A stretch of 64,000 nt of DNA from Acinetobacter sp. WU_MDCI_Axc73 (GTDB lineage: Bacteria; Pseudomonadota; Gammaproteobacteria; Pseudomonadales; Moraxellaceae): NCBI RefSeq assembly GCF_025562455.1, contig NZ_JAHPRO010000003.1, forward strand, positions 1 through 64,000. The letters are read 5' to 3'. A program made the translations under genes and the position numbers. Below the pieces are notes generated by a model, which made no database searches, was not told where the DNA came from, and worked only from the letters and a program-made list of their open reading frames with translations. Numbering within the stretch: the first letter of the stretch is position 1; each line of letters opens with the position of its first letter. Below, one piece after another: positions 57,530-62,477 of the stretch.

Positions 57530-57891
57530 AACTTCTAATATTCTGTTTTTTAAAGAGTTAAACAATGTTTATTTACAAACCATCTTCAACGGGGCTTGTG
57601 CATAAATTGAGATTTATGTGCTCTGACTGGTGGTAAGTGTCACATTTGGATACATCTAAAAAAACCTATTTCAATGTGCTAAAACGGTTTATTTTTATTC
57701 AGTTTAGTCTTATGTCTGATCTCATCGGATCAAGAACAAAGATATAAATTGGGCTAATTATTGAATAAGCTGAGAGAAATCCGTGCTCTCCATCTAGCTG
57801 ATTTTGCCTTTTCACAGTAGAATATGCGCTCTCTCTAAAAAGTCACATTGCGGCATTGTTCAAAAGACTTGCCCGTGGAGCCAAAATCAAC
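57530..57891. other. Intergenic region between pqiC and purL
   Basis: These 362 bases hold the purL promoter area. A -10-like TAGAAT lies at 57818-57823, but no good -35 pairs with it. GAGAG/CTCTC forms a small hairpin near 57774-57790. A 23-codon ORF at 57564 has no clear ribosome site. I see no PurR-type operator. Confidence 0.45.
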
Positions 57892-60800
57892 ATGTTTATC
57901 GTGGCCGGTGCACCAGCACATTCTTCATTCAAGAAAGCTCAACTATTAACACGTTTATCGTCAATCAGTTCTGTCCAAACCTTTGACAGCCAATGGGTTT
58001 ACCTGTTTGATCAAGCGCTCGACGAGCAGCAGCATCAATCTGCATTGCAACTTTTAAATGACGGTACATCGTTTGAATTGCGCCAAGTGGCCAATGATGA
58101 ACTTCAAGTTTTGGTCACTCCGCGCATAGGAACCATTTCTCCGTGGTCATCTAAAGCGACAGATATTTTTAAAAACTGTAATACGCCTGTGCATCGTCTT
58201 GAACGCGGTATTTTATATACTTTAAAAGGTGTCTCTGAACTGAGTAATGAGGTTAAACAGGCCTTGCATGACCGTATGACTGAAACAGTTTTCAGCCAGA
58301 TCGAAGATGCTCACCGTTTATTTTTAGAAACAGCACCAAAACCCTTAAATTCAATTGATATTTTAGGTGAGGGAAAACAAGCGCTTGTCAAAGCCAATAA
58401 TGAATTTGGTTTTGCCTTATCTGAACAAGAAATTGATTATTTAACTCAAGCCTTTACTGACTTGGGCCGTAATCCAAACGATATCGAACTGATGATGTTT
58501 GCACAGGCAAACTCTGAACATTGTCGTCATAAAATCTTTGGATCAGAATGGACCATTGATGGTGAAAAACAACCCTTATCATTGTTTCAGATGATCAAAA
58601 ATACCTATAAAGAATCACCAAATGAAGTATTGTCGGCATACAAAGACAATGCTTCTGTGATTGTAGGTTATGACACTCAGCGTTTTTATCCAAAAAAAGA
58701 CAATGAAACTGGGCACTTTGTTTATAAGTATAAGAGCCAAGCTGCTCACATTTTAATGAAGGTGGAAACCCATAACCATCCAACAGCAATTTCACCATTT
58801 GCTGGTGCGGCAACCGGTTCAGGCGGTGAGATTCGTGATGAAGGCGCAACAGGTCGTGGTGGTAAACCCAAAGCAGGGTTGACCGGTTTTACCGTTTCCA
58901 ATTTAAATATTCCAGGCTTTGAACAACCTTGGGAAGAAAACTACGGCAAACCTTCACGCATGGCATCACCATTACAAATTATGATTGATGGTCCATTGGG
59001 TGGAGCTGCGTTTAACAACGAATTTGGCCGTCCAAACTTAAATGGTTATTTCCGTACCTTTGAACAAAACGTCAATGGTGAAGTGAAAGGTTTCCACAAG
59101 CCGATTATGATCGCAGGTGGTTATGGGAATATCCGCCCTGACCATGTCGAAAAAGATGCGATTCAACCAGGTGATTTGCTGATTGTGCTGGGTGGCCCAG
59201 CCATGTTGATCGGTTTAGGTGGTGGTGCTGCATCTTCCGTTGATAGCGGTACCATGGGTGAAAATCTGGACTTTGCTTCGGTGCAGCGTGAAAACCCTGA
59301 GATGGAACGCCGTTGTCAGGAAGTGATTGATACTTGCTGGCGCATGGAAGACTTTAACCCAATTGTTTCTGTGCATGATGTTGGGGCAGGTGGTTTATCC
59401 AATGCGATGCCAGAATTGGTGAATGACCATGAATTGGGCGCAATTTTAAATCTGCGTAAAATTCCGTCGCTTGAGCGTGGCATGAGCCCAATGGAAATCT
59501 GGTCAAACGAAGCACAAGAACGTTATGTACTCGCGATTCGTCCAGAATCCTTAGAATTATTTGAAGAAATCTGTGCGCGTGAACGTTGTCCATTTGCCGT
59601 ATTGGGTGAAGCGACTGAAGCACGTCATTTAACGGTTGAAGACCCATTATTTGACAATAAAGCGGTTGATATGCCAATGCAGGTCATGCTTGGTGGCACA
59701 CCACGTATGCAACGTTCATATGAAACAATTGAACGTCAGGGCACTGAGTTTGATACCTCAAAAATTGATCTAAAAGATGCGATTTTCCGTGTTCTGAAGA
59801 ATCCAACTGTAGCCTCTAAATCATTCCTCATCACGATCGGTGACCGTTCAATTACAGGGATGGTGGCTCGTGATCAAATGGTTGGACCTTGGCAGGTTCC
59901 AGTAGCGGATGCTGCGGTGACTACAACCAGCTTGCAAGGTTATACAGGCGAAGCAATGGCAATGGGTGAACGTCCTCCAGTTGCACTTTTAAACCCTGCT
60001 GCTTCTGCTCGTTTGGCTGTTGCTGAGGCATTGACCAACATCGCTTCTGCTAATATTGAACAGTTGGGTGATATCAAGCTTTCTGCAAACTGGATGGCAG
60101 CAGCAGGTCAAAAAGGTGAAGATCAAGCCTTGTTTGAAGGTGTTAAAGCCATTGGTATGGAAATGTGTCCAGCGTTGGATATCGCTATTCCAGTGGGTAA
60201 AGACTCGCTTTCGATGCGTACTACGTGGAATGATGAGGGTATCGAGAAAGCTGTTACTTCGCCAATGTCTGGGGTGATTACGGCATTTGCACCAGTAAGC
60301 GATGTACGTAAAACTTTAACACCTGAGCTTAAAAATATTGATGGTTCTGTACTGGTACGTATTGATTTGTCAAAAGGTCAATTCCGTATTGGTGCATCGA
60401 TTTTGACCCAAGTGTATAAAGCCATTGGTACGATTACGCCAGATGTAGACAGTTTTGAAGATTTAAAAGATTTCTTTAATCTGGTACAAAACTGGAATAA
60501 TCGTGGTTTAGTTCAGGCTTATCATGACATTGGTGATGGTGGTTTGTTGGCGACTGTGGCCGAGATGATGTTTGCATCTCGCTTGGGGGTTGCTTTAGAA
60601 CCACAAAGCATTGAAAGCTTATTTGCAGAAGAAATTGGTGCGGTTTTACAAATTAAAAACACGGATTGGACTGACTTACAAGCTGAAATCGCAAGCTCAA
60701 ATTTAAAAGATGCAATTACCCTTGTTGGTCGTGTCAATGATTCTGACCAACTTAGCGTGAATGATTTAACACTTGAACGTGCTGAATTACAACAGGCTTG

Positions 60801-61728
60801 GGCAGAAGTTTCACATCAAATTCAACGTTTACGTGACAATGTCGAAACAGCAGATCAAGAGTTTGCTTTGATTGCAGATAAAAACCATAAAGGTTTAATC
60901 GCACAAGCAACTTATGATCTCAATGAGCCTGTAGAAGCGCCATTTATTGCAACACGTCGACCAAATATGGTCATTTTACGTGAGCAGGGTGTTAATGGTC
61001 ATGTGGAAATGGCAGCAGCCTTCGACAAAGTTGGTTTTAATACAGTTGACGTTCACATGAGTGATTTACTGGCTGGTCGTGTCAATCTACAAGACTTTGA
61101 AGGTTTGGTCGCTTGCGGTGGATTCTCTTATGGTGATGTGCTTGGTGCAGGTGGTGGCTGGGCAAAATCAGTACTGTTTAATCCAAAATTACGTGATCAG
61201 TTTGAAAACTTCTTTAACCGTGACAATACTTTTAGTTTAGGGATTTGTAATGGTTGTCAAATGTTGTCTCAACTTGCTCCACTTATTCCAGGTGCAGAAA
61301 ATTGGCCGCGTTTCCATCGTAACGTATCAGAAGTTTTTGAAGCACGTGCAGTGAATGTGCGTGTTGAAAAATCGGTTTCTGTATTGCTTCAAGATATGCA
61401 AGGTTCTATTTTGCCAATTGCAGTCGCACATGGTGAAGGACGTGTGGTTGCGAGTAATGAGCATTTGGCGAGCTTAAATAGCAATGATCAAGTGACTTTA
61501 CGTTATGTGGATAGTTTAGGTCAGCCGACGCAACATTACCCATTGAATCCAAATGGTTCACCAGAAGCAATCACGGGTGTTACATCTAGAGATGGTCGTG
61601 CTACGATTATGATGCCGCATCCTGAACGTAATTTCCGTGCTTTACAACACTCATGGAAACCTGAAGACTGGACTGAAGATGGTGCATGGTTACGTATGTT
61701 CCGTAATGCCCGTAAGTTTACTGGTTAA
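57892..61728 (+). CDS. purL: Phosphoribosylformylglycinamidine synthase
   Basis: This 1278-aa single-chain enzyme uses glutamine and ATP to make FGAM in purine synthesis. Domains: PurS-like N-terminal (1-140), linker, two AIRS-type halves ([25 protein letters not shown] spans about 297-321; the second half near GKDSLSM), and a C-terminal glutamine amidotransferase with nucleophile in [25 protein letters not shown] and [12 protein letters not shown] 57892 ([13 protein letters not shown]) is the family start, with GGAG upstream; a TTG at 57856 adds 12 residues. A 14-bp terminator follows. Confidence 0.96.
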
Positions 61729-61747: not shown

Positions 61748-61787
61748 TTACCATCTTTGATTGACTCAATCAAAGATGGTTTTTTTA
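61748..61787 (+). terminator. Strong terminator after purL
   Basis: ACCATCTTTGATTG (61750-61763) and CAATCAAAGATGGT (61767-61780) form a perfect 14-bp stem with a 3-base loop and seven Ts. Confidence 0.92.
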
Positions 61788-61924: not shown

Positions 61925-61954
61925 TTGGTATATGTTTTGCTTTTATTTTATACA
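61925..61954 (+). promoter_or_regulatory. Candidate promoter for the 38-aa peptide gene
   Basis: TTGGTA (61925-61930), an 18-base spacer and TATACA (61949-61954) resemble a sigma-70 promoter. Transcription would start near 61961, some 24 bases before the ORF start and its ribosome site. Confidence 0.5.
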
Positions 61955-61984
61955 AGCAAAATTAAATCAGCTTGGAGTATAAAT

Positions 61985-62101
61985 ATGAAAAAAAATAAAC
62001 TAATACTTGCTCGAAAACGTGAAGGTTGGATGTGGTTTGGCGTAGTCATTACTGCTGAATTGCTATGGATTTTAGGAAATTATATTGTTTTACAATCATA
62101 A
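61985..62101 (+). CDS. 38-aa single-helix membrane peptide, unknown function
   Basis: The frame MKKNKLILARKREGWMWFGV continues ITAELLWILGNYIVLQS and stops at TAA 62099-62101. A basic N-terminal part of 13 residues is followed by one membrane helix. GGAG lies 6 bases before ATG 61985, and a sigma-70-like promoter lies just upstream, so this looks like a real small gene. The positive-inside rule puts the N-terminus in the cytoplasm. I do not recognise a family. It is too short for ordinary ORF cut-offs. Confidence 0.6.
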   Translation: MKKNKLILARKREGWMWFGVVITAELLWILGNYIVLQS

Positions 62102-62162: not shown

Positions 62163-62477
62163 ATGCTAAAACTTATCTACTATGTGCCTGAATCTCATCT
62201 TGAAGTAACGAAACAAGCTATCTTTGAAGCTGGAGCAGGTGGAATAGGCAACTATGAACACTGTGCATGGCAAGTGAAAGGAGTCGGACAGTTTAAGCCA
62301 GTCTGCGGTGCAAATCCATTTTTAGGAAAATTGCATGAATTGGAACAGCTTGAAGAATGGCGCGTAGAAACCATTGTTTCAGAAGAAAAAGCCAGTACCG
62401 TTGCAACAGCATTAAAAGCAAGCCATCCTTACGAAGAGCCTGCTTTTGAATTTATTCAGATTTTAGATATTCAATAA
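62163..62477 (+). CDS. Stand-alone NIF3/YqfO C-terminal-like domain protein
   Basis: This 104-aa protein has the ferredoxin-like (CutA/PII-like) fold found inserted in YqfO/NIF3 proteins: MLKLIYYVPESHLEVTKQAI, GAGGIGNYEHCAWQVKGVGQF, and ASHPYEEPAFEFIQIL. The HPYEEPA motif is diagnostic. The main NIF3 domain is absent, and related free-standing forms occur in Pseudomonas. Function is unknown. I chose ATG 62163, since a start at 62142 would add seven unmatched residues. Its stop directly abuts the stop of the convergent nitroreductase. Confidence 0.82.
   Translation: MLKLIYYVPESHLEVTKQAIFEAGAGGIGNYEHCAWQVKGVGQFKPVCGANPFLGKLHELEQLEEWRVETIVSEEKASTVATALKASHPYEEPAFEFIQILDIQ

Follow-up and report, generated by a model that had tools for sequence, protein, structure and literature searches.

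A predicted small membrane protein of the KGW family in Acinetobacter, behind a sigma-54-type promoter that is probably activated by NtrC

Three described systems come closest to the locus analysed here. The first is NCBIfam family NF040911, the 'KGW motif small protein', whose model title carries neither function nor regulation; no paper was found on 'KGW motif small protein' or 'KGW motif', and in the Acinetobacter literature on small proteins, RpoN and NtrC the gene appeared in no title or abstract start among the matches listed. The second comprises the nitrogen genes transcribed from NtrC-type sigma-54 promoters, such as glnA, amtB and gltB. Transcription from sigma-54 promoters strictly requires an activator, and a fixed distance between their GG and GC is the hallmark of the class. 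One consensus given for them is TGGCAC-N5-7-TTGCT (PMC12316311); for Acinetobacter, both an RpoN and a PilR have been described from strain AB5075 (PMC5382811), and a study of A. baumannii NtrC cites an earlier ntrC-mutant transcriptome with 253 changed genes, probably in rich medium (PMC12829801). The third is YohP of E. coli, a stress-induced membrane protein of 27 aa whose production is tied to nutrient starvation (PMC12719787).

The window, i.e. the whole stretch of 64,000 nucleotides that was analysed, comes from Acinetobacter sp. WU_MDCI_Axc73 (assembly G000; 3.42 Mb in 86 contigs) and contains an ATG frame at 61985 to 62101 on the forward strand, stop codon included, that encodes the 38-aa protein MKKNKLILARKREGWMWFGVVITAELLWILGNYIVLQS. 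Inspection of the sequence places a GGAG ribosome site at 61974 to 61977 (forward strand), 7 nt 5' of the ATG; by a simple pattern, 106 of the 137 family loci have a similar purine-rich site before a start codon chosen by script. An in-frame TTG at 61925, upstream of the ATG, would give 58 aa, but the alignment of relatives supports the ATG at 61985, which we therefore take as the start. The frame, its GGAG and its basic-then-hydrophobic sequence, all named in the original prediction, are thus borne out. The description of the gene as unannotated is doubtful, since NF040911 names the protein: the frame scores 51.5 bits against this model (E 5.8e-14; curated cut-off 35), or 50.3 bits in a search of the whole genome, and it falls in the same length class, with the G-W and F conserved. 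The small protein is real and already belongs to a named family, rather than being an unknown gene. Comparison among relatives gives good support to the prediction of a translated small membrane protein with a promoter and a ribosome site of its own.

Unlike the motif that gives the family its name, the window copy reads E-G-W, with E as residue 13 (62021 to 62023), and it still counts as a member, since the profile score decides membership and exceeds the cut-off. The residue before G-W is K in 122 of the 136 family loci with a readable G-W and K or R in 130, and K-G-W is present in all four nearest relatives of the window protein. The nearest named records with a relative of the peptide are Acinetobacter ursingii, A. 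guerrae, A. ihumii and Acinetobacter sp. S54.

Conservation of the frame across the genus, proposed as a check on the gene, was found: NF040911 scores above its cut-off in 130 of 175 Acinetobacter genomes and matches at E 0.01 in 137, against 0 of 14 control genomes at E 0.01 (at E 10, weak matches below the cut-off appear in 10 of the 14). With one genome per species, these counts are of species and not of independent events. Stop codons in close relatives, named beforehand as grounds for doubting the gene, are absent from the inside of every match listed in the search of the 175 genomes. For the comparisons between loci we used the 137 family loci matched by our own profile among 171 fetched loci; L032 to L034, from the window's own genome, were dropped before counting, and weaker second matches in G064, G121, G125 and G126 were left out of the fetched loci. 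The 34 other fetched loci consist of 31 post-purL regions of genomes without a match (fetched for 31 of the 38 such genomes), the purL region of each of G013 and G119, and a weak second locus from G119. Over 428 non-independent pairs of family genes the pooled pS is 0.45 and the pooled pN 0.08, and dN/dS between the window gene and its four nearest relatives ranges from 0.12 to 0.32. In an alignment of 13 members M1, G14, W15 and F18 are invariant. Because pN lies far below pS and because of this amino-acid pattern, we conclude that selection acts on the protein. Outside the genus, 4 of 299 genomes in a family-level sample matched, all below the cut-off, two of them inside long frames and one with an internal stop, and these were treated as chance; among plasmid records there were three weak Aeromonas matches.

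The basic N-terminus precedes a hydrophobic stretch whose best 19-residue mean hydropathy is 1.85 (residues 18 to 36), and AlphaFold2, run with 13 sequences, models a single helix from residue 3 to 37 (mean pLDDT 81; residues 21 to 30, pLDDT 94). One predicted helix with basic residues on its N-terminal side suggests a single-pass inner-membrane protein with its N-terminus inside. The likeness to YohP, also a short membrane protein, would extend to production under nutrient starvation, which is predicted on the side of the window protein; at 38 aa the latter is longer.

Upstream of the gene, the block kept in an alignment with seven relatives is TGGTAY...TTTTGC. The window carries it as TGGTAT-ATGTT-TTGCT at 61926 to 61941 on the forward strand (GG at 61927 to 61928, GC at 61939 to 61940), that is, as a -24/-12 element of the sigma-54 kind with conserved spacing, from which transcription may start near 61952. 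The original prediction had instead placed a TTGGTA-18-TATACA promoter here, whose letters are present (61925 to 61930 and 61949 to 61954) but whose -10 box is not part of the conserved block. Across the family, 131 of 137 loci have TGG-N8-TTGC no more than 170 nt from the start and 6 lack it, whereas spacers of 4 to 7 and 9 to 13 occur in 0 to 2 loci each, and spacers of 3 and 14 in 15 and 19; after similar upstream regions were thinned, the core remains in 78 of 83, with spacers of 3 and 14 in 7 and 9. It is this fixed distance from GG to GC that leads us to read the promoter as sigma-54 type and not sigma-70, a reading that we regard as well supported by sequence comparison. The stricter form TGGYAY-N5-TTGC was found in 10 of the 137 upstream regions, where 100 Markov resamplings gave 0.11 on average; the ten are the window, its seven aligned relatives, and loci of G013 and G119 that lie elsewhere in the chromosome. 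The -24 box of 94 of the 131 loci reads TGGTTY, which is weaker than the usual TGGYAY. Between TGG and the start codon there are 50 to 71 nt in some clades and 73 to 152 nt in others. In one locus (L086, from G127) AG replaces the GG of the -24 half while the -12 half is intact, and this promoter may be weak.

An ordinary sigma-70 promoter, with the conservation of TGG-N8-TTGC reflecting something else, would fit the presence of TTGGTA-18-TATACA in the window, and hexamers matching TATAAT in at least 4 of 6 positions are indeed commoner 16 to 18 nt behind TTGGNN (67 of 131 loci) than at random positions in the same regions (379 of 1370), an excess that the T-rich stretch after TTGC may cause. 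However, TATACA as a -10 box is common to only one of the seven aligned relatives (L083), and a consensus scan omitted TTGGTA-18-TATACA altogether, its one promoter-like site being a different one where 3.4 are expected in shuffled sequences. Together with the fixed spacing in the family, these results make a sigma-70 promoter quite improbable.

In some clades (L082, L093, L104 and loci like them) promoter and start codon are parted by a leader of about 100 nt that contains the shared words ATGCACAA and TTCAGTATCAAC and may be a regulatory RNA element. Such leaders could be taken to mean that the conserved transcript is mainly a regulatory RNA and the peptide secondary. We consider this very improbable, given the selection on the protein described above and a leader in the window of only about 33 nt, if the start near 61952 is correct; in addition, Rfam searched at E up to 1 gave three matches, none near the gathering score.

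The gene lies 3' of 57856 to 61728, which we take from its sequence to be purL, and is parted from it by a terminator-like stem at 61750 to 61780 (forward strand; 14 pairs, a loop of 3 and a T-rich tail). Directly downstream, at 62163 to 62477 on the forward strand, is a gene of 104 aa resembling PII and CutA, with weak Pfam matches to both below the cut-off, and a nitroreductase gene (PF00881) on the opposite strand also lies beyond the small gene. Since the start of the PII/CutA-like gene falls within 240 nt of that of the small gene in 53 of 137 loci, the two may share one sigma-54 transcript. The purL gene is inside the 1.5-kb flank in 92 of 137 loci, so that the small gene is not bound to one place. 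In G013 and G119, diverged family members (L168 and L170; 33.5 and 33.8 bits, just below the cut-off) occupy another chromosomal place, between what are presumably SbmA-like and LpxO-like genes, and each lies behind a strict sigma-54 site, TGGCACGGCATTTGC and TGGCATAGCATTTGC, respectively.

Which activator would act on this promoter was approached through the other sigma-54 genes of the same genome. A search of the genome at E 1e-10 finds two sigma-54 activators, NtrC (TIGR01818, 744 bits; equivalog cut-off 558.6) and a response regulator that we take to be PilR-like and that scores above no cut-off; each of their genes adjoins a frame resembling what we take to be a sensor kinase. The genome has 61 strict sites (TGGYAY-N5-TTGCW), and examination of the full set puts 28 of them in an intergenic position before a gene, compared with 4 of 30 examined among 53 sites of a control pattern with one more base in the spacer (Fisher p 0.002 vs strict 28/61). 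'Intergenic before a gene' is a rule applied by script, under which a first run gave 27 sites, including L252, and the complete run 28, without L252 and with L262 and L265; the small gene's own site entered among the 28 through the downstream 104-aa gene, since frames below 80 aa went uncounted.

The genes behind these 28 sites include glnA (glutamine synthetase, recognised from its first 70 residues), gltB (glutamate synthase) and the ammonium transporter gene amtB; the small subunit of xanthine dehydrogenase (xdhA), an OHCU decarboxylase and two xanthine/uracil-type permeases; a NarK-like transporter (301.7 bits, slightly under the cut-off of 311.7); an ANTAR regulator, two gamma-glutamyltranspeptidases, an amidase and a urea-amidolyase-associated protein; and amino-acid oxidase and symporter genes. 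Also among the 28 are an AraC-type regulator, an ATP-grasp protein and a Gcw_chp protein without a clear nitrogen role, and L256, which had no family match; the family scan covered all of the 28 except L262. On the whole, this set resembles an NtrC regulon. The small gene thus has the same promoter form as glnA, amtB and gltB of its own genome, and the glnA site even shares its TGGTAT -24 box; unlike these genes for enzymes and transporters, it encodes a 38-aa membrane peptide. Because the sigma-54 promoter is shared with nitrogen genes, we regard nitrogen limitation as the likely signal and, from the sequence evidence, NtrC as the likely activator. The original prediction that the protein regulates transporters or responds to stress was a guess from its class, and the sigma-54 promoter, which also precedes nitrogen genes, narrows it to nitrogen limitation.

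The PilR-like regulator, with NtrC one of just two sigma-54 activators in this genome, could act at the same promoter, tying the protein to the type IV pilus or to surface behaviour, and PilR was found (at E 1e-120) in 66 of 71 searched genomes, including 32 of the 33 with the KGW gene and 34 of the 38 without it. We nevertheless hold this activator to be unlikely, because the strict sites lie mostly before nitrogen genes, with no pilus gene recognised among the scanned genes behind them, and because the relative G169 combines the KGW gene and a strict site with an NtrC of 99% identity, while PilR gives no match there at E 1e-120. The four other genomes without a PilR match (G009, G080, G129 and G147) have no KGW gene. 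A search for the Pfam pilin in the window's own genome, meant as a control for PilR, gave no match.

NtrC was found in 69 of the 71 searched genomes, that is, in 32 of 33 with the KGW gene and 37 of 38 without it, so that co-occurrence does not prove a link between the two and hardly tells NtrC from PilR; the genomes without an NtrC match are G148, which has no KGW gene, and G152, which has one and is 64% complete. Upstream of the small gene, no NtrC site (GCAC-N7-GTGC or GCAY-N7-RTGC) was found. The same patterns were seen at only 1 of 27 scanned sites, that of gltB, and not before amtB, and the site model may therefore not suit the genus; the upstream regions of amtB in other genomes form a partial sample, since only loci with the gene on the forward strand were read. 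De novo searches for an activator site, one with inverted 4-mers and one with enriched 5- to 7-mers in 67 thinned regions upstream of the promoter, gave no usable shared motif, and the leading words were rejected as activator sites because they resemble terminator stems (GCCACC/GGTGGC) and the last part of purL.

The explanation that we favour as probable is that this KGW-family protein spans the inner membrane with one helix, that its gene is transcribed by sigma-54 RNA polymerase, most likely activated by NtrC, and that it is made on nitrogen limitation. Under this scheme, sigma-54 RNA polymerase would transcribe the gene from TGGTAT-N5-TTGCT, and NtrC would activate the promoter when nitrogen is limiting, alongside glnA, amtB, gltB and the genes for purine, urea and amino-acid scavenging. 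The protein would sit in the membrane with its N-terminus inside and its basic segment, which contains G-W-x-x-F, at the cytoplasmic face, and may act either by binding to a larger protein of the membrane or through a change in the membrane itself. A further step, that throughout the genus an NtrC- and sigma-54-induced protein binds and tunes a nitrogen-uptake system, e.g. AmtB or a permease, under nitrogen limitation, is conceivable but doubtful. If the favoured explanation is right, a named, uncharacterised family of Acinetobacter small proteins would gain a specific, testable condition of expression, and knowing when a small membrane protein is made is often the missing step toward its function.
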